This document shows, one piece after another, positions 18,139 through 29,513 of a stretch of 64,000 nucleotides of DNA. Each line of letters begins with the position of its first letter. The stretch's first letter is position 1. This DNA comes from Microvenator marinus (GTDB lineage: Bacteria; Myxococcota_A; Bradymonadia; Bradymonadales; Bradymonadaceae), in assembly GCF_007993755.1 (NCBI RefSeq), contig NZ_CP042467.1:4488001-4552000 (forward strand), given 5' to 3'. Under the pieces are notes generated by a model. That model was not told where the DNA came from, made no database searches, and was given only the letters and a program-made list of their open reading frames with translations. A program made the translations under genes and the position numbers.

Positions 18139-18897
18139 TTACCCCGCCATGATGCCACCGTCTGCCTCGATTGTCGCGCCCGTTATAAAGCTCGCCTCGT
18201 CCGAACATAGCCAGGTCACCACGGTCGCGATTTCGTCAGGAGTGCCCATGCGTTTGATGGGGTTCATTTGAGCAAACGCCTCCAGAGTTGCCGGGTCGTT
18301 GTGGGCCGCACGACGCACCATTTCCGTATCCACCACGCCAGGGCAAACCGCATTCACTCGTATCTTGCTTGTTGCGTAGTCGAGTGCAGCAGACTTGGTC
18401 AATCCAATCACAGCGTGTTTTGACGCTACGTAGATCGACGAGCCTGGAAGGCCCTTTAGGCCGGCGATGGAGCTGTTGTTGACGATCACACCACCACCCT
18501 GTTTGAGCATTTGCTCCACTTGGAATTTCATTCCCAGGTAGACGCCTCGAATATTGATCGAGAAGAGCTTGTCTACGTCTTGGGTCTCCGTCAGATGCAG
18601 TGCGCCCATCGCGCCTTCCCAGCCTGCGTTATTGAACGCGAAATCGAGGCGGCCAAAACGCTCCACACAGCCGTCTACGGCTGCCTTCAGCTCCGTCTCG
18701 TTGCTTACATCGGCCTTGAAGAAGTATGCCTCACCGCCGTTCCCGACGATCTCTTTGGCTACAGCGCTTCCAGCCTCTTGGTCTACGTCAACAATCGCGA
18801 TACGCGCGCCAAACTTGGCAAAACGGCGAGCGGTGGCCGCGCCGATGCCTTTCGAGCCGCCCGTAATGAAGGCTACCTTTCCGTTAAAATCATTCAT
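18139..18897 (-). CDS. Short-chain dehydrogenase/reductase
   Basis: 252-residue classical SDR. The NAD(P)-binding TGGSKGIG motif (about 11-18), FNNAG (about 88-92), the Ser of NNSSIAG, and catalytic YVASK (about 154-158) are present. The length is normal and the C-terminus has ITGATIEADGG. Asp rather than Arg after beta-2 (VDVDQEAG) favours NAD(H). The start ATG at 18897 has AAGGAG upstream and overlaps the ppsA stop (ATGA). The in-frame upstream extension to 19038 runs inside ppsA and is not coding. The substrate is unknown. Confidence 0.88.
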   Translation of the reverse strand: MNDFNGKVAFITGGSKGIGAATARRFAKFGARIAIVDVDQEAGSAVAKEIVGNGGEAYFFKADVSNETELKAAVDGCVERFGRLDFAFNNAGWEGAMGALHLTETQDVDKLFSINIRGVYLGMKFQVEQMLKQGGGVIVNNSSIAGLKGLPGSSIYVASKHAVIGLTKSAALDYATSKIRVNAVCPGVVDTEMVRRAAHNDPATLEAFAQMNPIKRMGTPDEIATVVTWLCSDEASFITGATIEADGGIMAG

Positions 18898-21272
18898 GTG
18901 TTCTCCTTGTGTTGTTTGTCTTGAGTGAGGCGGCGAGTTACGCCCACCACACTGTCTGGGTTGAGAGAGATTGAATCGATCCCAAGCCCAACCAGAAACT
19001 CTGCGAACTCCGGATGGTCGCTTGGCGCTTGGCCACAAATACCGACGCTGACTCCGTTCGAATGGGCAACGCGGATAAGGTCAGTAATCGCCCGTTTGAC
19101 CGCATCATTACGCTCGTCAAAAATCTCGGCCAGAGCGCCGTTGTCTCGGTCGATGCCGAGAATGAGCTGGGTGAGGTCATTCGAGCCGATCGAAAAACCA
19201 TCGAATCGCTTTGAAAACTCGTCGGCCAGGATGATATTTGAGGGAATCTCTGCCATCACATAAACCTTCAACCCGTTCTTCCCCCGCTCAAGTCCGAACT
19301 CGCGCATGGTTTCGAGCACGCTGTCGGCCTCCTGGAGCGTGCGGCAAAAAGGAATCATGACGATGACGTTTTCAAACCCAAACTCGTCGCGGACCCGTCT
19401 CAGCGCCTCACATTCGAGACCAAATCCCGGCCGGTACGTTTCCGAGTAATATCGTGACGCTCCACGAAAGCCGATCATGGGGTTTTCTTCGTGAGGCTCA
19501 AACTGCCGGCCGCCGACTAGATCGGCATACTCATTGGTCTTGAAATCACTGGTCCTCACAACCACCGGCTCTGGGTATTGAGCGGCCGCAATCTTAGCCA
19601 CGGCGGTGGCAAGCTTTTCGATGAAGTATTCGGTCTTAGACTCCCAGCCCGCCGTAATGGCGTCAATTTTGGCGACAGCTTCTTCGTCTTTGAGGTTTGG
19701 GTAGTTCAGCAGCGCCATTGGATGAACTTGGATTTGGTGCTCGATCACGAACTCAAGTCGCGCAAGTCCGATTCCCCGCGTAGGGAGTTGCCAGAAGCTC
19801 AGCGCCGCGTCCGGGTCTGCCACGTTTAGCATGATTCGAGTCGGAGGCTCTTTGAGGTCCGTGAGATCGAGCTCCGTGCGGGTGAATGGCACTTCTCCGG
19901 CATATACCGTGCCGGAGTGCCCCTGTGCACTGGAAATGGTAATCGTGGCTCCGTCCTGAATTCGGCGAGTACCATCAATGGTCCCAACTACCGCGGCGAT
20001 ATCGAGCTCTCGGCTCACGATAGCCGCATGAGACGTACGCCCGCCGTAGTCCGTTACAATGCCCGCAGCCCGCTTCATGATCGGCATCCAATCTGGGTCG
20101 GTAATTTTGGCCACCAGAATGCCACCGTCCTCGAATCGGTCCGCCTCGTCCATGGACTCCAACACAAAGGCTTTTCCCGTCGCGATCTTGGAGCCAACTG
20201 CCACGCCCTCTACTAACACATCACCGGTGCCGCTCAGCGCATAAGTTGCGGGCACATGACCCTTGGAGTGCCCGTGCACGGTTTCAGGCCGTGCCTGCAG
20301 TATCCAGAGCTCGTTGCTCAAGCCGTCTGTCGCCCATTCGATATCCATGGGCTTGCCGTAATGTTCTTCGATGATCGTGCACCACTTGGCGAGCTCCAAA
20401 ACGTGCTCATCGCTAAGACTCCAGCGCCGGCGCTCGGCTTCGCTGGTTTCAAGGTCGAGCGTGCCCGTCGGGCCATAGACGAGTTTTCGGGCTTTATCGC
20501 CAAGGCGTTTGTCCAGAATCGGTCGGGCCCCAGGCTTTCCCAACAACGGTTTGAACACCCTCCATTCGTCCGGATTGACGACCCCTTTGACCACGTATTC
20601 GCCGAGTCCAAATGCGCCGTTGATGAGCACGATGCCTGGAAAGCCCGTCTCCGAGTCCAACGTGAACGCCACGCCCGAAGAGCCCTTGTCCGAACGAATC
20701 ATGCGCTGCACCGCCACCGAGAGAGCCACACTCTCATGGTCGAACCCATTATGAACTCGGTAGGTAATCGCGCGGTCGGTGAAGAGCGATGCAAAACACG
20801 CGCGGACCGCCTCGAGAAGCTCCTCGATGCCGACCACGTTCAAGTAGGTCTCTTGTTGGCCCGCAAAGCTTGCGTCGGGGAGGTCCTCGGCCGTCGCACT
20901 CGATCGAACAGCGACCGAGGCGTCAGAGCCAGAACCCATCGCTGTGTAGGCCGTTTTGATGGCTGCTACCAACGCTTCAGGCAGAGTTGCGGCGTTGATT
21001 AAGTTACGAATATTGGCGCCAATTTTTTGAAGATCTCCACCTTCCTCTAGGGCGTCGAGATCGGCCGAAATCTGCGGCCAGAGGTCGTTCTCGGCGATGA
21101 AATTTCGGTAGGCTGTGGCAGTGACCGCAAAGCCGTCGGGCACGCGCACACCAAGCGCGGTCAGGGAGTGCAACATCTCACCTAGCGACGCATTTTTTCC
21201 GCCGACGAGTCCGATGTCAGAAATTCCGACTTCACTAAAGTTCAATACGAGTTTGTCTTCACGAGGCATCAT
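18894..21272 (-). CDS. ppsA: Phosphoenolpyruvate synthase
   Basis: 792 residues with the three domains of PEP synthase, which converts pyruvate + ATP to PEP + AMP + Pi for gluconeogenesis. The N-terminal ATP-grasp begins VGGKNASLGEML. The central phosphohistidine domain has GGRTSHAAIVSRE (His is the phospho-carrier), and the C-terminal TIM barrel has GSNDLTQLILGIDRDN and GICGQAPSDHPEF with the catalytic Cys. The length matches PpsA rather than pyruvate phosphate dikinase (about 880). The first two codons are both ATG, so the start could be one codon later. It is translationally coupled to the SDR gene downstream. Confidence 0.95.
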   Translation of the reverse strand: MMPREDKLVLNFSEVGISDIGLVGGKNASLGEMLHSLTALGVRVPDGFAVTATAYRNFIAENDLWPQISADLDALEEGGDLQKIGANIRNLINAATLPEALVAAIKTAYTAMGSGSDASVAVRSSATAEDLPDASFAGQQETYLNVVGIEELLEAVRACFASLFTDRAITYRVHNGFDHESVALSVAVQRMIRSDKGSSGVAFTLDSETGFPGIVLINGAFGLGEYVVKGVVNPDEWRVFKPLLGKPGARPILDKRLGDKARKLVYGPTGTLDLETSEAERRRWSLSDEHVLELAKWCTIIEEHYGKPMDIEWATDGLSNELWILQARPETVHGHSKGHVPATYALSGTGDVLVEGVAVGSKIATGKAFVLESMDEADRFEDGGILVAKITDPDWMPIMKRAAGIVTDYGGRTSHAAIVSRELDIAAVVGTIDGTRRIQDGATITISSAQGHSGTVYAGEVPFTRTELDLTDLKEPPTRIMLNVADPDAALSFWQLPTRGIGLARLEFVIEHQIQVHPMALLNYPNLKDEEAVAKIDAITAGWESKTEYFIEKLATAVAKIAAAQYPEPVVVRTSDFKTNEYADLVGGRQFEPHEENPMIGFRGASRYYSETYRPGFGLECEALRRVRDEFGFENVIVMIPFCRTLQEADSVLETMREFGLERGKNGLKVYVMAEIPSNIILADEFSKRFDGFSIGSNDLTQLILGIDRDNGALAEIFDERNDAVKRAITDLIRVAHSNGVSVGICGQAPSDHPEFAEFLVGLGIDSISLNPDSVVGVTRRLTQDKQHKENT

Positions 21273-21518
21273 GCTCCATCCTTTGCGATTTCAAGCATTC
21301 AAAGAGCATCAAGTGTGCCAAACGAAAAGTTGACGCATTTCCTCGGGCTTTGAGGCACGACCCTCTGCAATGTGACGAAAAATTTACGTCTTTTGGCTCG
21401 CCCGTGAGGAATTTGCGCTTCGCTTGGGCGCTCATCACGCATCGACAACTCAAAATCGTTCATGATAAGCATGGGGCCTGATGTGCACGAATTGTCCGCG
21501 CAAACGAGGAGGACTCGG

Positions 21519-22097
21519 ATGGGGCTTTTAAAGACCATTGGAGCGCTATATCTAAAGGCTGCTGGTTGGGAGGCCGTCGGGGAGGTTCCCGAAGGCAAGT
21601 ATATCGTGGTGGCCGCGCCTCACACGTCGAATTGGGATCTGCCCTACACACTCGCGGTCGCGTGGGTGCTCGGCGTCAAGATTCACTGGCTAGGTAAACA
21701 CACGCTTTTTGAAGGGCCTTTTGGGCCGTTCATGAAGGCGCTTCGAGGTGTGCCGATTGATCGTAGGTCCAGCAATAACGCCACCAAAAGCGTGGCGAAC
21801 TGGATTCAAGAACAAAAAGGCGACGTGGTGCTTGCGGTAGCTGTTGAGGGGACCCGCTCCAAGAAAGAATTCTGGAAAAGCGGGTTTTTCTACATCGCAA
21901 AAGAGGCTAATGTTCCGTTACTCCTCGGGTTCTTAGACTATAAAAATAAACGTGGTGGTTTTGGACCCGTGCTTCAACCCACGGAGCATCCAAGGGAGCT
22001 GATGGATCAAATGCGCGCCTTCTACGACGGTATTGAAGGCAAGAGGCATGAAAACACCACGCCCGTGAGACTGCGCGAAGAGGTTACGGATGTTTGA
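21519..22097 (+). CDS. 1-acyl-glycerol-phosphate acyltransferase-like protein
   Basis: 192 residues from the ATG at 21519, which has GAGGAGG 7 nt upstream; the longer frame from 21462 lacks a good site. It shows the PlsC-type acyltransferase motifs: HTSNWD (HX4D, about 34-39), the acceptor-binding RGVPIDR (about 74-80) and EGTRSKKEFWKSGF (about 112-125). Enzymes of this subgroup acylate lysophosphatidate or related lipids at the inner membrane. It is the first gene of the operon running to 29318. Its last 8 bp overlap the coiled-coil gene, which suggests a functional tie to the HSP90-like proteins, but the link is not understood. Confidence 0.85.
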   Translation: MGLLKTIGALYLKAAGWEAVGEVPEGKYIVVAAPHTSNWDLPYTLAVAWVLGVKIHWLGKHTLFEGPFGPFMKALRGVPIDRRSSNNATKSVANWIQEQKGDVVLAVAVEGTRSKKEFWKSGFFYIAKEANVPLLLGFLDYKNKRGGFGPVLQPTEHPRELMDQMRAFYDGIEGKRHENTTPVRLREEVTDV

Positions 22098-23178
22098 TTT
22101 GCTCGACAAAGACGTCAATTACGTTGGCGGAGGAATCTCCCTTCGAGCAGTAGAAGATACGATCCAGTTCGAACGTTCCAAGCAGGATCAGCAGATCGAT
22201 CACCTCGCGCATCTGCGCGCCCAGAACGACGATCTCCAAAGCTCTCTCGCGATCGAGATGAAGCGGCTGCGCGAACTATCTACCGAGCTGCAAAAGAGCA
22301 GGGCTGGTGAGGCTTCAAAACTCGCCGAGATGTTCGCATGGCTTCCATGGGTCAAGAGTCCAAAGCAGACACGTCAATCTGTTGAGGAATTACTGCGCCG
22401 TCAGTACGAGCTGAGTTCCATGCGCCTTCGTCAGGCGGCTGATTTTGCTGACCGCCTTGAGGGAGCCCTCGTCGATCTTTACGACGAGATAGATAGGCTG
22501 AATCGAAAGATCATCGAGTCCGCCAAGAATGAGGAAATGGCCGCGGAACACGTGGCCAATTTGCGCGACCTGAAGATTGCCATCGAGCATGAACTCGCGA
22601 TGGCTGAGCCTTCAAGCGCGGCCGAGCGGCAGCTCACTTCTCAGCTCGACCGAACAAGGCGCCTGCTCGCCGAACACACCACCAAACTCAAACTCTATTC
22701 TACGGCCGAAGAGAGACTCGAGAAGCTCAAACACAGCACGCGGCTCCTCGCTGAGACCATCTCGCACCTTCAATCCGACATCACGCGTTACGTGACCGCG
22801 GCGAGCGAGAAATTGGACCTGATTGCAGGGCAAATTCAGGCGATCGGGGCCGCTGCGGATGCCGCAAATGTCATGCTTGAGCTCAAACATTCGCTCGACG
22901 CAATGACGGAGTCCCTCAATTATACCACGCGCTTTGTGGCCGATACCCAAGAGTACTTCCGCGATAACGTGGATTCGATGGTCAACGATCTTGAGCTCTT
23001 CGACTCGGAGACCGAGCGCGTCTTGACCAAGAACAATCTCTACAACGAGTCCCTAGACGACCTTGACGTGGAAGATGCCCTTGCGGGCGTGCTCGCCCAG
23101 AAGATCGACGCACTCGGCGTTTCCGAAGAGGAGGTCATGTTGGAATTCCCAGAAACGCAGAAGGTCGATGGTCGATGA
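22090..23178 (+). CDS. Long coiled-coil protein
   Basis: 362 residues, almost entirely heptad-patterned alpha-helix. Coiled-coil stretches cover about 22-75, 95-205 and 205-330. A short hydrophobic kink, MFAWLPWVKSP (about 80-90), interrupts the first two. The C-terminal tail is acidic. There is no signal peptide and no recognised family. The start overlaps the acyltransferase gene by 8 bp and the end overlaps the next gene by 11 bp. A scaffold or adaptor for the HSP90-like ATPase pair downstream is a reasonable guess only. Confidence 0.7.
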   Translation: MFDLLDKDVNYVGGGISLRAVEDTIQFERSKQDQQIDHLAHLRAQNDDLQSSLAIEMKRLRELSTELQKSRAGEASKLAEMFAWLPWVKSPKQTRQSVEELLRRQYELSSMRLRQAADFADRLEGALVDLYDEIDRLNRKIIESAKNEEMAAEHVANLRDLKIAIEHELAMAEPSSAAERQLTSQLDRTRRLLAEHTTKLKLYSTAEERLEKLKHSTRLLAETISHLQSDITRYVTAASEKLDLIAGQIQAIGAAADAANVMLELKHSLDAMTESLNYTTRFVADTQEYFRDNVDSMVNDLELFDSETERVLTKNNLYNESLDDLDVEDALAGVLAQKIDALGVSEEEVMLEFPETQKVDGR

Positions 23179-24184
23179 ATCCGAACTGATACATGGAACC
23201 AAGGTTCCAAGTGTGGTGCTGAGAGGGGCGGAGGAAGAGGCCCATATCGACTTGCTGGTACGTTCGTTGCGCGGTGCACGCCTAAACGCTCATTTCCCGG
23301 ACGTAAGGGCCATGATCTCGCACCTGCAGGTCTTGTCGCCCAAGGTACATCAAGGGGTTTACGATGGACTTGAGGTTGACGTCCGAACGGGTCTTCCGAC
23401 CTACAAAGAGTGGACCCGCGCTCAAACCGATGTGCGACTCGCCGCCAATCAACTCAAGCAGTTTTCCTCTCGTGCGGAACTCGCAAAAAGGGCTGAAGGC
23501 CACCGGGACGGCCCGCACGTGCGGCAGTTGAAGCGTTATGATTATTACAACGCGATCCAAAACTCGCAGCTCGTACCGCTCGGCGAAATGCACGTGAAGC
23601 TAAGACGTGTGGACCCTCAAACTTCGACCGCCCACTTTCACGTTGTCTTGGATAAACTCGATGCCTCTGGTGTTTTCGTCAGATACGCCATCGATGTGGC
23701 TCAAAGGCGGGACTCCGTCGAGACCATCGCCACGGTCGACCCCGGTGATATGGCAAACCACACCAGGGACTTCCAAGCGCTCATCTACCAGTTCACGTCA
23801 TTGGATTCGGAGTTCACCTTCATCAAGCTCGCGTCTATGGCCGGCCTTGTAGTGGAGCGGGTTATCAAGGGCGTGGTTGGCCCAGTATTCACGCCTCAAA
23901 CCCAGACTCCTTCGGGCTGGGAGTCAGCCGCGAATCCCTTTCTGGCTACGTTCTCGCAAGATATGGCCGCCATTGATGTGCTTGAGTACAAAAACAACGA
24001 CCCGCTCGCGGATGTGCTCGCGGCGAAACAAGAAACCACCGGTCAGGCCTATGCAAAAATGCGCGAGTCGCTGGGGTATCAGGTCTTTAAAGATCGAAAA
24101 TTTGTGGTCGAACGAGTGGCACTAAACGACTTGAGGAAGTTTCTTCAAGAACGTGGGGCTATGAATATCGTTTACGGCGTTTAG
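23168..24184 (+). CDS. Unknown protein of the HSP90-like operon
   Basis: 338 residues from the ATG at 23168, inside the end of the coiled-coil gene. The frame is open from 23063, but that segment overlaps coding sequence and lacks a start with a ribosome site. The middle contains a beta-rich segment (HVKLRRVDPQTSTAHFHVVL and SGVFVRYAIDVAQR, about 140-180) and a hydrophobic helix FIKLASMAGLVVERVI. No motif or family is recognised. It ends 8 bp before the HSP90-like ATPase gene, whose start has GGAG just after this stop. Probably cytoplasmic. Confidence 0.65.
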   Translation: MVDESELIHGTKVPSVVLRGAEEEAHIDLLVRSLRGARLNAHFPDVRAMISHLQVLSPKVHQGVYDGLEVDVRTGLPTYKEWTRAQTDVRLAANQLKQFSSRAELAKRAEGHRDGPHVRQLKRYDYYNAIQNSQLVPLGEMHVKLRRVDPQTSTAHFHVVLDKLDASGVFVRYAIDVAQRRDSVETIATVDPGDMANHTRDFQALIYQFTSLDSEFTFIKLASMAGLVVERVIKGVVGPVFTPQTQTPSGWESAANPFLATFSQDMAAIDVLEYKNNDPLADVLAAKQETTGQAYAKMRESLGYQVFKDRKFVVERVALNDLRKFLQERGAMNIVYGV

Positions 24185-24192
24185 GAGAGAAA

Positions 24193-25914
24193 ATGGACCA
24201 GCTTAGAGCGCAAGCCGATGCCGTTGTGGCCAACCTTGTCACGCAGTTCGCGGACCCTTTTGATGCCCTGCGTGAACTCTGCCAAAACAGCATTGATGCG
24301 GGTACTTCGCGGATCGAAGTTTGGACCAGTTTTGAAGGCGCGCCTGGCAAGCCCGGCGTCATCGAAATCCATGTCGATGATTTCGGCGAGGGCATGGATG
24401 AGGCGATCATCGACAACCAATTTACGAGGTTGTTTGCGTCTACCAAGGACAAAGATTTTACCAAGATCGGCAAGTTCGGAATTGGCTTTGTTTCAGTCTT
24501 CGCGTTGAAGCCGAAGGCCGTGCTCGTCCACACTGGGCGCGGTGGAGAGTACTGGGAAGTCCTTTTCGACCACGAGCTCAATATCCACAAGTCCACGCTC
24601 AACGTACCGGTCGAAGGCACCCAGATTACGATTTTTCTAGAGGGTGACCAGAACCGCTATCAAGAGGTTGTCAAGCGCTCCTTTGACTCATTGAAAAAAT
24701 GGTGTGTCCACGCAGAGACCGAGATTTGGTTTGAAGATCGAAGCTCCAAAACGGTGAAACAACCGGTTGAAATCACCGAAGCCTGGGGCTTGCCAGGGCG
24801 CTCGTTTCACTACGCGACCGAAGGCACCGAAGCCGTTTTAGCCTTCTCAGACGCCCCAAGATATTCGTTCTATAACCGGGGCCTCACGCTCGCCTACGCG
24901 GAGTCGCCAGCAGGTCTCTTACCAACCCGAATTGAGCCACATTTTGCTCATATTTCCGTGAAGATGAAGTCGCGCTATCTCGAGCACACGCTTTCGCGCG
25001 ATACCATCGTCAAAGACGTCTATTATGAGTCGGCGATGAGCATTCTTCAGCGAGCGCGGCTGGATATGTTTGCCGAGCTGGTCAAGGACGTGGTTGAGCT
25101 AGTCAAAGAGCCTACTTGGAACCTCGATCATATGCTCGAATATTGCTCTTTGATGGAGCAGCTTTCCCTGGCACCGGATATCGAGAGCTTTAACCTACTC
25201 AACGCGCGCATTTTTAGGACCCACGGAGGAAAGGGAGTCACACCGATGGATCTCCTCGAGATGTACGAGTCTAAGGGGCGTGTACTCATCTCGCCGGATT
25301 TGACGTCGTTTGTGGAGAATGTTGGGAAAGACGAGGTCATTCTAGGGGCATCACAGCTCCACCACGCGCAAAACCCCCTGCGCGTTATCCAAACCATCGC
25401 GCCACGAGTGATGGTGCTCGCGTACAAAGAAAGCCTTGTCGGTAGGGTTGTCCAGTACTTCTGGCCGCGCAACGAAGCGATGACAAAGTCCATCAAGTTG
25501 CCCGAAAGTGTGTTTGTTTCCATCGAAGTTGTTGAGGCCGACCTGATCGCACGCAAAATGCTCGACGATGTGCTCTCGCTCACTCAAACAGCAGGGCTTA
25601 GGTTCAAACGCATCGAACTCTTCCGGCCGACAACCGAGCATTCGCCATTCTTCGTTGTGGCTGAGAAATTAGCCACGCTCATGGAGAGGCCAAGTGCTGG
25701 AGCCGTGATGAAGGAATTGGCTGTCAACGAATTGCATCCCCACTTTCAGCGCCTCAAGAAGCTCTACAACACCCATCCCGATGTGGCGGTGTTTTGCTTA
25801 GCGCGGGCGCTCTTGATTGATGACAGTGGTGCCGGGATTCACGCATTCAACTCTACACTAAAAGGCGATCCAAGTACGGCTATCCTAGAAGAAATCATGA
25901 AGAGGGCCTCATGA
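24193..25914 (+). CDS. HSP90-like (GHKL) ATPase with intact nucleotide site
   Basis: 573 residues. The N-terminal GHKL ATPase domain is complete. The N-box ALRELCQNSIDAG has Glu28, Asn32 and Asp35. The G1 box VDDFGEGM has Asp63, Gly65 and Gly67. A lid stretch FASTKDKD (82-89) precedes the G2 box KIGKFGIGF with Gly93, Gly96 and Gly98. Residues 130-300 look like the middle domain of HSP90-like proteins. The C-terminal half is not recognised. It differs from HtpG in length and C-terminus. Related ATPases occur as chaperones, sacsin-like proteins and parts of conflict systems. Its stop overlaps the next gene (ATGA). Confidence 0.8.
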   Translation: MDQLRAQADAVVANLVTQFADPFDALRELCQNSIDAGTSRIEVWTSFEGAPGKPGVIEIHVDDFGEGMDEAIIDNQFTRLFASTKDKDFTKIGKFGIGFVSVFALKPKAVLVHTGRGGEYWEVLFDHELNIHKSTLNVPVEGTQITIFLEGDQNRYQEVVKRSFDSLKKWCVHAETEIWFEDRSSKTVKQPVEITEAWGLPGRSFHYATEGTEAVLAFSDAPRYSFYNRGLTLAYAESPAGLLPTRIEPHFAHISVKMKSRYLEHTLSRDTIVKDVYYESAMSILQRARLDMFAELVKDVVELVKEPTWNLDHMLEYCSLMEQLSLAPDIESFNLLNARIFRTHGGKGVTPMDLLEMYESKGRVLISPDLTSFVENVGKDEVILGASQLHHAQNPLRVIQTIAPRVMVLAYKESLVGRVVQYFWPRNEAMTKSIKLPESVFVSIEVVEADLIARKMLDDVLSLTQTAGLRFKRIELFRPTTEHSPFFVVAEKLATLMERPSAGAVMKELAVNELHPHFQRLKKLYNTHPDVAVFCLARALLIDDSGAGIHAFNSTLKGDPSTAILEEIMKRAS

Positions 25915-28900
25915 GCAGTATCGACGACGTCATTGCGCGCAGCCGGCAACCCGGCCAGTTTAAAGAAGTTCGGCGCTTTACCGTGGCGCGTTCTGAGGCC
26001 ATGCAGAAGATGCGTAAGTTCGCACTGGCGGACCCGAACTTCTACATACTCGAGCTTGTCCAGGCTGCTGTCGCCAACGGAGCGGTTTATGTGGACATCA
26101 GTGCGTCTCAACGAGATGTCACACTCTCCTATATCGGTGGTGGCTTTAAACGCGAAGAGCTAGAAGACCTCTTCGAATTCCTCTTCGCCGCGAAGTCCGA
26201 TGTCGACGTCGCTGACGTCCGACAGCTGGCCCTCGGTATAAACGCCATTATCGGCGCGAATCCTAAGGAGATTGTCATTGAGAGTGGCGCTGGAACGCTC
26301 GAAACCACGCACCGTGTCGAGATTTTGGACCAGGGTAAACACGTGCAAATGGGCATGCCTGACAAACCGCTCGACGGAACGTTTATCAGCATCAAGGGTA
26401 TCGACCGTTACAAGTTGAACTCAGCAGGTGCCCAGAAGGAAGAAAGTGTCCTGATGGAGCGCTGCATCATGGCGCCGATCCCCATCATCTACAATAATGA
26501 CCCCATCTTCGGGACCGCCTCGATCCGACATCCAACGCTCTTTGGATTCACCAAGACCCTGAAAGTGGATGAGGGAGATCTCTACGGAACTATCGGTATT
26601 CCGAACTCCAATCAGAGTGCACATTTCCGCCTCGTGACTCATGGCGTTTGGGTCCAGTCCATGCCCTATGACCACAACGGCCAGCGTATGGGTGGTGCGC
26701 TTTCGTTTGAACGACTTAGGAAGTCTGCTGACCACTCCTCGATCGTTCAGGACGAGGCCCTCGGAGAGATGTGGTTTCGTCTGCAGCCTTATTTTGAGCA
26801 ACTCATCACCGGAGTTCGAAAAGAAAGCAAACTTGCGGCGTATGATCTGAAAGGAAACGAGCTCGACCTCAAAGAGATTCGTAACGTTCTGCGCGACCAT
26901 AAAAGCGTTGTGGTCAGCTCGCCCGAGATTACTGACGAACAAGGGCTTCATGCGCAGCGGATGGCCGAAGCCATCGGGGCACCGCTCATCCTCGTCGCCT
27001 CTCAGGACCTCGCCACGTTCAGACAGCTCTTCCCCTCGTATCATCTGGTCTTCCCGCAGTTCACTGCAGATGAGCTCAAACTCTTCTCCAAAGCAGAATG
27101 GCAAGCCCCTGCGCAGCCATGGCTCGCTGCACCAGAAACTCTTCCGCCCATCACGGCAAAGCACCCGAGCCTCGCAGGATTCGTCGAGTTCGTCGAAGCC
27201 ATGCCTCAGGATTTTGAAATCCGACTCGAGGCATTCTTCCCGAACCAAAAGCCGCGTACGGAGTCCGGGATTGGCGTAGAGATCGTGGTTGCTAACAGGC
27301 GTATCTACTCCGGTCTGGTTCATTCGAATCTCGCCGGCGCACACGTGGTCATCCACGTCCCGATCCCCGTTTCATCCTCTCTCAGTGCGACGCAAATCTT
27401 TGGAAAGCGGGCAACCCAGACGGATCCCGAAGACTTCGTCAATCAGGTCATCTTGGGGGTTGAACAATCTTTGGAACGGGTCCTGCTCAAGACCGTTAAT
27501 ACCATTGAGGATTTTGAGTCTGACCAGGCCCGAACGCTGCTCCAGAGCGTGATGCAGGGGCGGATCATCACCGAAGTGGATGAAAAGGGGATTCTGGGCT
27601 TTAGAGTGGTGTCCAATGTACTTCGACACGATCTCGTCGAGAAACCTCTCTTTCGGACCCTAAAAGGGGAGTTGCGCTCGTTGAACGATCTTGCAAAGAA
27701 CCTGAATCGCTTCGGCGCGATTTACGGAGTCAACACCGCGATTGAACCCGATCTCGAAGGCATCGATTCGTCTCATGTACTCGAACTCCACGAGTTCGAA
27801 GAGATCGCCCTGATCCAGATGATTGGATACACCGCATACGTGCGAGTCGATGCGCGTGACGTACTGGTGGAACATAAGGGGGCTCAGGTCAGGGATTGGG
27901 CATTTGGCATTCGAGAGTTCTCTGACAGCACTTTGCTGATAGAGAGCTACTTCCCGCCAGAAGACCACGATATGATGGCGCGCAAGATCTGCGAAGATTG
28001 GTATGAGAATCATCAAGACCCTGAGATGCGGAGGCATGCGCATCGGCATCTCGTGCACTACCTCACGGAGCTCATGAAGTCCGGAGGCGGTGCGCCGCAA
28101 TGGCTTCTGGAGCTGAGGCTCTTCCCAACGAATCAGGGGCTTGTTTCTATGAAGACCATCATGGAAGAGGCTCCGGTTGTGATGATGGATGGGTGGCCCT
28201 CGGATTTGGTCGCTTTGGATACCGACCCGGTAAACGCGCCTAGAGAGGCGAAAATCGGAGAGCTCAAACCGAAAGAGCCACTCACTCTCAAACTTCATCC
28301 TGTGGCTGCCCGCGCGTTGCATGAATTGGAGCTCGTCAGACCCCTCAACGTCACCACCAAAGAGGTGGATTTCCTTGCCGCTGAGCTCTCGCCTGACCTC
28401 GCTCTTGTGCACCGAATTCAAAATGCTGCCCTCGATGCGACCCTCGGCATTCAGCTCGAAGGGCAGGGCGATGTGCAAGTCATGCTGATGAAGGAGCGCG
28501 AAGTCCACCACTTGCCCCAGCTTGCGCGGAACGCTGGCGTGAGTGGCGTGGTGAAGGTCGACGACTTGAGTATTGTCGGTTCGGTTCGCGAACTCGAAGG
28601 GTGGCTCTTTGACCAAGTTGGCATCTTCTACCATCAGCTCGTTCGGCAGGTTCTAAGTGGTGTAGCCACAGGTGAGCGGCGAAATCTGATTCTCAAAGCG
28701 CTCATGCAGTACGCGGCGCGGCACGTCATGTTGATGGAAGAAACCTCTGGCTTTGTGGTCCGATGCACAGATGTCGTTGCGAATCAGGTTATCTCTCTGC
28801 CTATCGTTGAGACCGAAGGGGGGCTAACCACCGTGCGTCAGGTTCTTCAAGGCTACCTCAAGGCGACAGCCACTCAGAAGTATGAAACTTGGGTTGCGCC

Positions 28901-29318
28901 CTGGTTGGAATCCACCAATGTGGACACAAAGAAGTTCTTGAAGCAAGCGTGTACGCAGGGCGCCATCATTCGGCCTCCGTCAAGAGCGGCCAAGAGCACT
29001 CTGGACTATACGCAACCTCTTGAAGACTGGCTCAATCAAGGCCTCAAGGCCCTCTCGCCCAGCCAAACCAAGATTTTTTGTCGTCTCAAGGACAATGTGC
29101 AACCTCTGGTTCAACTGGAGTTGATTGCGCTGCAGTCGGTAAGTGCCGAGGTCAATGTGAATCATCCACTTGTACAGCGTGCGTTGCATTCTTCGGACGC
29201 CCGAAACCTCCTTCTCGTCGCCATTTACGGCACGGTCAACTCGTATTTTCAAGAGGTTACGGACCAACACGAACTCGAGTTCCAGGCCGCTTTGGCAGAG
29301 CTTCTGAGCAAGCAATAA
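25911..29318 (+). CDS. Giant degenerate HSP90-like (GHKL) paralogue
   Basis: 1135 residues. The N-terminus aligns by eye with the HSP90-like ATPase encoded just upstream, but the ATP site is lost. N-box YILELVQAAVANG keeps Glu48 but has Ala52 for Asn and Ala55 for Asp. The G1 equivalent YIGGGF has Tyr74 for Asp, and the G2 equivalent keeps only one Gly (LALGI). The remaining 950 residues show mixed alpha/beta character with no recognised domain; there is no signal peptide or membrane segment. It starts within the previous stop codon. It is probably a non-hydrolysing partner or regulatory subunit (inference). Confidence 0.7.
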   Translation: MSSIDDVIARSRQPGQFKEVRRFTVARSEAMQKMRKFALADPNFYILELVQAAVANGAVYVDISASQRDVTLSYIGGGFKREELEDLFEFLFAAKSDVDVADVRQLALGINAIIGANPKEIVIESGAGTLETTHRVEILDQGKHVQMGMPDKPLDGTFISIKGIDRYKLNSAGAQKEESVLMERCIMAPIPIIYNNDPIFGTASIRHPTLFGFTKTLKVDEGDLYGTIGIPNSNQSAHFRLVTHGVWVQSMPYDHNGQRMGGALSFERLRKSADHSSIVQDEALGEMWFRLQPYFEQLITGVRKESKLAAYDLKGNELDLKEIRNVLRDHKSVVVSSPEITDEQGLHAQRMAEAIGAPLILVASQDLATFRQLFPSYHLVFPQFTADELKLFSKAEWQAPAQPWLAAPETLPPITAKHPSLAGFVEFVEAMPQDFEIRLEAFFPNQKPRTESGIGVEIVVANRRIYSGLVHSNLAGAHVVIHVPIPVSSSLSATQIFGKRATQTDPEDFVNQVILGVEQSLERVLLKTVNTIEDFESDQARTLLQSVMQGRIITEVDEKGILGFRVVSNVLRHDLVEKPLFRTLKGELRSLNDLAKNLNRFGAIYGVNTAIEPDLEGIDSSHVLELHEFEEIALIQMIGYTAYVRVDARDVLVEHKGAQVRDWAFGIREFSDSTLLIESYFPPEDHDMMARKICEDWYENHQDPEMRRHAHRHLVHYLTELMKSGGGAPQWLLELRLFPTNQGLVSMKTIMEEAPVVMMDGWPSDLVALDTDPVNAPREAKIGELKPKEPLTLKLHPVAARALHELELVRPLNVTTKEVDFLAAELSPDLALVHRIQNAALDATLGIQLEGQGDVQVMLMKEREVHHLPQLARNAGVSGVVKVDDLSIVGSVRELEGWLFDQVGIFYHQLVRQVLSGVATGERRNLILKALMQYAARHVMLMEETSGFVVRCTDVVANQVISLPIVETEGGLTTVRQVLQGYLKATATQKYETWVAPWLESTNVDTKKFLKQACTQGAIIRPPSRAAKSTLDYTQPLEDWLNQGLKALSPSQTKIFCRLKDNVQPLVQLELIALQSVSAEVNVNHPLVQRALHSSDARNLLLVAIYGTVNSYFQEVTDQHELEFQAALAELLSKQ

Positions 29319-29388: not shown

Positions 29389-29407
29389 GCCCATCCCTCG
29401 TGGGGTT

Positions 29408-29480
29408 GCGCAGGTAGCTCAGTAGGTAGAGCACGGCCCTGAAAAGGCCGGTGTCGGCGGTTCGAGCCCGCCCCTGCGCA
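29408..29480 (+). tRNA. tRNA-Phe (GAA)
   Basis: 73-nt cloverleaf. The acceptor stem GCGCAGG pairs with CCTGCGC, with discriminator A. The D-stem is GCTC/GAGC, and the anticodon stem CGGCC/GGCCG encloses loop CTGAAAA with anticodon GAA. The T-arm is GGCGG-TTCGAGC-CCGCC. CCA is not encoded. It has its own strong promoter and a perfect intrinsic terminator 3 nt downstream, so it is a single-gene transcription unit. Confidence 0.97.
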
Positions 29481-29483
29481 TAG

Positions 29484-29513
29484 AAAAAAACCGGTCTTTT
29501 GACCGGTTTTTTT
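29484..29513 (+). terminator. Intrinsic terminator after tRNA-Phe
   Basis: Run of A, stem ACCGGTC/GACCGGT with a TTTT loop, then a run of seven T. The symmetric A and T tracts could let it act in both directions. Confidence 0.92.

Follow-up and report, generated by a model that had tools for sequence, protein, structure and literature searches.

Four adjacent genes of Microvenator marinus, here called q2 to q5, constitute a recurrent module of Myxococcota, in which the pairs q2-q3 and q4-q5 are separable. On the basis of sequence comparisons and structure models we propose, at about even chances, that in these bacteria their products form a dedicated Hsp90/sacsin-like machine for the remodelling of proteins, in which an active ATPase would be combined with a pseudo-ATPase.

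The module lies in a stretch of 64,000 nucleotides (the window) from the genome of this bacterium, a single contig of 5.85 Mb. The ORF list of the window contains five same-strand genes between positions 21519 and 29318, all on the forward strand: q1 (21519-22097, 192 aa), similar to lysophospholipid acyltransferases; q2 (22090-23178, 362 aa), a coiled coil; q3 (23168-24184, 338 aa), an alpha/beta protein; q4 (24193-25914, 573 aa), by its residues an active-type HSP90/sacsin-like GHKL ATPase; and q5 (25911-29318, 1135 aa), a putative pseudo-HSP90 with degenerate ATP pocket and a long C-terminal part. The spacing of 8, 11, 8 and 4 bp given in the original prediction agrees with the ORFs (-8, -11, +8 and -4): q1/q2 and q2/q3 overlap by 8 and 11 bp, q3 and q4 are separated by 8 bp, and q4/q5 share a 4-bp ATGA overlap. 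A longer start of q1 is available at 21462, the ribosome-binding site being better at 21519. At its 5´ side the cluster is flanked by a divergent 792-aa gene (18894-21272), which is PEP synthase-like when its translation is judged by eye, and at its 3´ side by a tRNA-Phe gene (29407-29481). The latter starts 88 bp past the end of q5 and is directly followed by a terminator-like hairpin of 13 pairs (span of both 29407-29513). Scans for regulatory sites, in themselves weak evidence, gave no promoter-like site on the same strand between the five genes and a few terminator-like ones. A simple scan of hydropathy predicts no transmembrane helix for q1 to q5.

Judged by its residues, q4 possesses an intact ATP site of the HSP90 type, together with the middle-domain arginine. 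The N box with its Glu and Asn (E28, N32, D35), the G1 box DxGxG (D63, G65, G67), the G2 box GxxGxG (G93, G96, G98) and R269 of the middle domain are invariant in 16/16 homologues, which places q4 among GHKL ATPases. It matches HATPase_c_3 with 42.1 bits (cutoff 25), and HtpG and sacsin are among the matches of its profile search of the PDB. Because the scores for the NCBIfam sacsin N-terminal family NF047352 (43.2 bits, cutoff 50) and for Pfam SACS PF25794 (28.9 bits, cutoff 32.8) stay below the curated cutoffs, we do not file q4 as a sacsin. Its HSP90-like N and middle region covers residues 9-300 (24217-25092) including the catalytic-loop Arg269, an architecture based on the profile alignment to q5 only. 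There is also a second type of GHKL paralogue, of about 530 aa, which was never near q2-q3 in our sample and follows polyphosphate kinase in two genomes. Its copy in the M. marinus genome (about 517 aa, near contig position 3305600) overlaps the polyphosphate kinase gene by 4 bp (L024:9127-12833, about 3305100-3308800). In another genome (G004, locus L033) a polyphosphate kinase and a GHKL ATPase, 9-10 bp apart, precede two q5-like genes. Such a combination of polyphosphate kinase and an Hsp90-like protein in one operon may represent a related stress system.

According to its sequence and its model, q5 is an enlarged paralogue of q4, a true relative of HSP90 that is predicted to be catalytically dead. 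Although no Pfam, NCBIfam or PADLOC entry matches it above threshold, its alignment with q4 extends through the entire N and middle region (hhalign E 2.7e-4 in one comparison). A template-free AF2 model built from 14 sequences (pLDDT 71, pTM only 0.42) resembles TRAP1 (Foldseek E 2.8e-13) and other HSP90s. Model residues 16-303 superpose on human HSP90 with VIA-align Z 16.6 and rmsd 5.2 over 270 residues; MORC3 is also listed (VIA Z 14.5), and the structure matches span residues 14-384 only. Together the alignment and the predicted fold show the first ~300 residues as a degenerate HSP90 N and middle module (residues 15-303, 25953-26819) without the nucleotide-binding residues. The Mg-binding Asn is replaced by Ala, Ser or Gly in 22/22 homologues. 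The G1 Asp is generally lost, the aligned columns being Y/W and mostly V/T/I, G2 reads mostly Q-L-A-L-G, and 21/22 have His or Gln in place of the catalytic Arg. Functional N, G1 and G2 boxes of a GHKL protein are thus missing from q5, while the fold is retained in the model. Since E48, K271 and D281 are strictly conserved, q5 is, judged by its sequence, a conserved pseudo-enzyme rather than a product of decay. In their C-terminal parts q4 and q5 have in common a module LPLFxTxxGxxxS (E 5.8e-6 and 2e-5), present in ~3-4 copies in q5. From the window itself q4 had been predicted to carry full N, G1 and G2 boxes and q5 to be its dead GHKL paralogue; the invariant motif residues of the former, and the alignment, predicted fold and uniformly lost ATP site of the latter, bear this out.

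Relatives of q5 occur in other settings, too. In the M. marinus genome a lone relative of 830 aa (L172:7852-10344, about 4764350-4766840) has no adjoining q4 and is preceded by a phosphoglycerate dehydrogenase-like gene. One GHKL ATPase and three tandem q5-like genes of 745-859 aa are found in G005 (L035:2593-11535), a locus that represents arrays of pseudo-HSP90 paralogues.

The remaining two proteins are of a different kind. The soluble coiled coil q2 carries a conserved sequence, YVTAAxEKLDLIAGQIQAIGAAADA, in its C-terminal part; q3 is characterized by conserved motifs DKLD and DRKF and by an alpha/beta AF2 model (pLDDT 75, five sequences). Searches of Pfam and NCBIfam with q2, q3 and q5 singly, and of Pfam through their homologues, gave no family above threshold; in PADLOC q2 has a weak coiled-coil match only, q3 and q5 none, and sequence profiles of the three against the PDB returned nothing useful. 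The original prediction, too, had been unable to assign the coiled coil and the 338-aa protein. No convincing PDB match was obtained for the fold of q3, the best Foldseek E of 0.11 and the best VIA Z of 4.3 being noise, so these scores provide no evidence of a new fold.

The recurrence of the module was followed in 237 Myxococcota genomes, many of the relatives being fragmented MAGs. q3 is present in 34 of them and q4, at an E of no more than 1e-20, in 49; the 29 genomes with q2 all belong to those with q3. As many as 33/34 genomes with q3 also contain q4, vs 49/237 overall (Fisher p 4e-27, phylogeny ignored). Conversely, q3 is absent from 16/49 genomes with q4, about a third, and hence q2-q3 is not required for every q4-q5 pair. 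q2 and q3 adjoin in about 25/29 q2 genomes. By hand count, no more than about 6 kb separate q3 from q4 or q5 in 17-18/34 genomes, contig ends cut the comparison in ~5/34, and the pairs are apart in ~11/34; in G010, for example, 9.6 kb separate q2-q3 from q4-q5. Within the family of the window, the four genes are collinear on one strand in the window itself, G004, G011 and G007 (here with one opposed gene inserted), contig-end remnants q3-q4 or q3-q4-q5 are seen in G002, G014 and G020, and G019 has the module genes with inserts. Members of other families (G060, G069, G081, G130, G217, G221) show a tail-to-tail arrangement, q2-q3 facing q4-q5, in which the ends of q3 and q5 are ~35 bp apart or less, or slightly overlap. 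Linkage kept through both orientations is a good argument for shared function, and the adjacency of homologues of the four non-acyltransferase genes in several families is more than chance would give. The expectation of five genes conserved in order thus holds for the four from q2 to q5, either collinear or tail-to-tail, and fails for q1. The tight coupling of an active and an inactive HSP90-like protein, suggested at the outset, is found as well, since q4 and q5 are adjacent and conserved together with q2 and q3.

In a tree of 60 q4 homologues, genes near q2-q3 fall mainly in one clade of 37 (support 98/99), where linked and unlinked genes are intermixed. A distance-correlation (mirror) test of q2, q3, q4 and q5 mainly reflected differences between groups, and we leave it out of the evidence. 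For the distribution beyond Myxococcota we have a single pattern-based GTDB scan with q4 only; it gave relatives in genomes labelled Myxococcales, Myxococcota or Deltaproteobacteria, some bearing just the label uncultured, and these labels served to assign the phylum.

HSP90 normally acts as a homodimer in which both arms are active. As q4 and q5 are encoded as a pair, the best reading of the active and the dead HSP90-like subunit is that of an asymmetric clamp driven by ATP: q4 would be the ATP-burning arm, q5 a regulatory or client-holding pseudo-arm. The client might be held by the long repetitive C-terminal part of q5. q3 and the coiled coil q2 may form a sub-complex that either delivers the client as an adaptor or is itself the client or scaffold. 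Binding and hydrolysis of ATP by q4 would then open and close the clamp, so that the client is remodelled or assembled; q1 is placed outside this mechanism. The genome of M. marinus encodes a separate true HtpG elsewhere (PF00183, 475 bits), hence the housekeeping HSP90 is a protein other than q4 and q5. Linked to the q2-q5 module we found neither a J domain nor Hsp70 or a protease.

Several other readings have to be weighed against the clamp. We give very little credence to q2-q3 and q4-q5 being unrelated conserved pairs that happen to stand side by side: this would suit the genomes in which the pairs are apart, G010 included, but it has to explain linkage in two orientations across several families and the fact that nearly all q3 genomes fall within the set with q4. 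Equally far-fetched is the membrane complex built on lipid acylation that the original prediction envisaged. q1 carries the HxxxxD motif of acyltransferases (HTSNWD at residue 35) and matches PF01553 with 51.8 bits; its score is under the cutoff of TIGR00530 (1-acylglycerol-3-phosphate acyltransferase). The overlap of q1 with q2 speaks for this reading, and so does the gene that follows q5 in part of the genomes of one genus, which is either patatin-like or codes for an acyl-CoA-binding protein. However, phmmer searches of all ORFs of related loci found the window copy alone, which largely refutes this reading and speaks against q1 as a member of the system; the five proteins, moreover, lack predicted transmembrane helices, and the neighbour genes change from genome to genome. 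With no q1 homologue at related loci and with varying operon neighbours elsewhere, q1 is probably a local passenger of the operon, adjoining q2 in this genome only. Neither the membership of the acyltransferase nor the lipid/membrane complex could be upheld, the latter because no such gene stands at other clusters. A constant fifth gene was rejected altogether, as the operon neighbours differ (TPR, protein kinase, phospholipase/patatin, fatty-acid desaturase, dehydrogenases and others). Among them, a patatin-like phospholipase gene follows q5 after 8 bp in L039 (6473-7717), in one genus, and a gene for an acyl-CoA-binding protein is located downstream of q5 in the same genus (L011:9988-12200).

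A role in conflict with phages, in which the GHKL pair would sense infection and q2-q3 would respond by analogy with paraMORC and VcSduA, is the chief competitor of the clamp; it appears unlikely to us, though far less so than the two readings above. GHKL ATPases do occur in defence (PMC12137116, PMC3710099). Further, the distribution is patchy, q4-q5 pairs are expanded to several per genome (up to 8 matches in G011), q4 has a weak match to PADLOC TmtA (E 3e-6, GHKL core only), and a Schlafen-type gene is inserted between q3 and q4 in G019. This insert (L043:1474-3447) encodes 658 aa with Schlafen AlbA_2 and HATPase_c_4 domains. Against defence stands the absence of nuclease, toxin and TIR-type domain matches from all four proteins. 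Most of the 99 neighbour proteins belong to metabolism or signalling; PADLOC and Pfam scans gave among them few and scattered, mostly single matches, and a defence island was rejected. So was a mobile origin, given that q2-q5 have no plasmid match, q3 has no viral homologue, and viral contigs and phages yield for q4 weak GHKL-core matches only. In PADLOC the gene set corresponds to no anti-phage system and gives weak coiled-coil or GHKL-core matches only. Neighbours, plasmids and viral contigs thus lend no support to the proposed conflict-related role. GHKL ATPases serve DNA and conflict functions too, and sequence alone cannot tell which applies. It is similarly doubtful, by analogy with sacsin, that q2 is a filament or scaffold with q3 as its partner and that q4-q5 is the chaperone building or dissolving it. 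Such a process would agree with the conserved coiled coil of q2, with the occurrence of q3 in every q2 genome and with the sacsin-like ATPase domain of q4, and sacsin has been linked to the organisation of intermediate filaments (PMC9779362). Nevertheless, many genomes carry q4-q5 pairs without q2-q3, and the reading presupposes that q2 would polymerise.

For the asymmetric clamp, sacsin (SIRPT) is the nearest described architecture. In its supradomains an HSP90 N-like and a middle-like part are joined with further repeats, and they act as chaperones (PMC3629688, PMC9880540). Sacsin and the module both combine, in this order, an HSP90-like N domain and a middle-like part with the catalytic arginine; both have long repeats without a family and several HSP90-like units per machine. 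On the other hand, sacsin is one eukaryotic chain of 4579 residues while the module uses two genes, q4 and q5; conservation of the nucleotide pocket is reported for each of its three units while q5 is predicted to be dead; and its UBL, J and HEPN domains have no match in the module in Pfam and NCBIfam. A more specific proposal, a split sacsin of Myxococcota in which the active and an obligate pseudo-ATPase HSP90 subunit assemble a structure of coiled-coil q2 and q3, is tentative, and we consider it improbable. With HSP90, HtpG and TRAP1 the pair would share the modelled N and middle fold of q5 and all ATP-site residues in q4, but neither protein matches PF00183 at E up to 1, and the structure matches, which cover q5 residues 14-384 only, have so far given no sign of the C-terminal dimerisation domain. 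The GHKL N region of phage rIIA lysis-inhibition proteins shows 28-30% identity with q4 along roughly one third of its length, although the match is weak (E 1e-5 to 8e-3) and restricted to the GHKL core. paraMORC/R-M, VcSduA (a Shedu with GHKL domain) and PADLOC TmtA resemble q4 in their GHKL ATPase domain; unlike the module, paraMORC and VcSduA contain nucleases or toxins or are coupled with such proteins. To our knowledge, none of these three has a dead HSP90 partner and a q2-q3 pair. In literature searches we found no description of the q2-q5 set. The original suggestion of an undescribed dedicated complex accordingly stands insofar as the searched libraries hold no named family or system for it, with four genes in place of five.

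If the clamp exists as proposed, the pairing of an active arm with a giant dead one would show the role of each HSP90 arm. It would also offer a small bacterial counterpart of sacsin, a protein that is itself hard to study for its size. q2 and q3 add two conserved families which have no library match and possess a clear genetic context.
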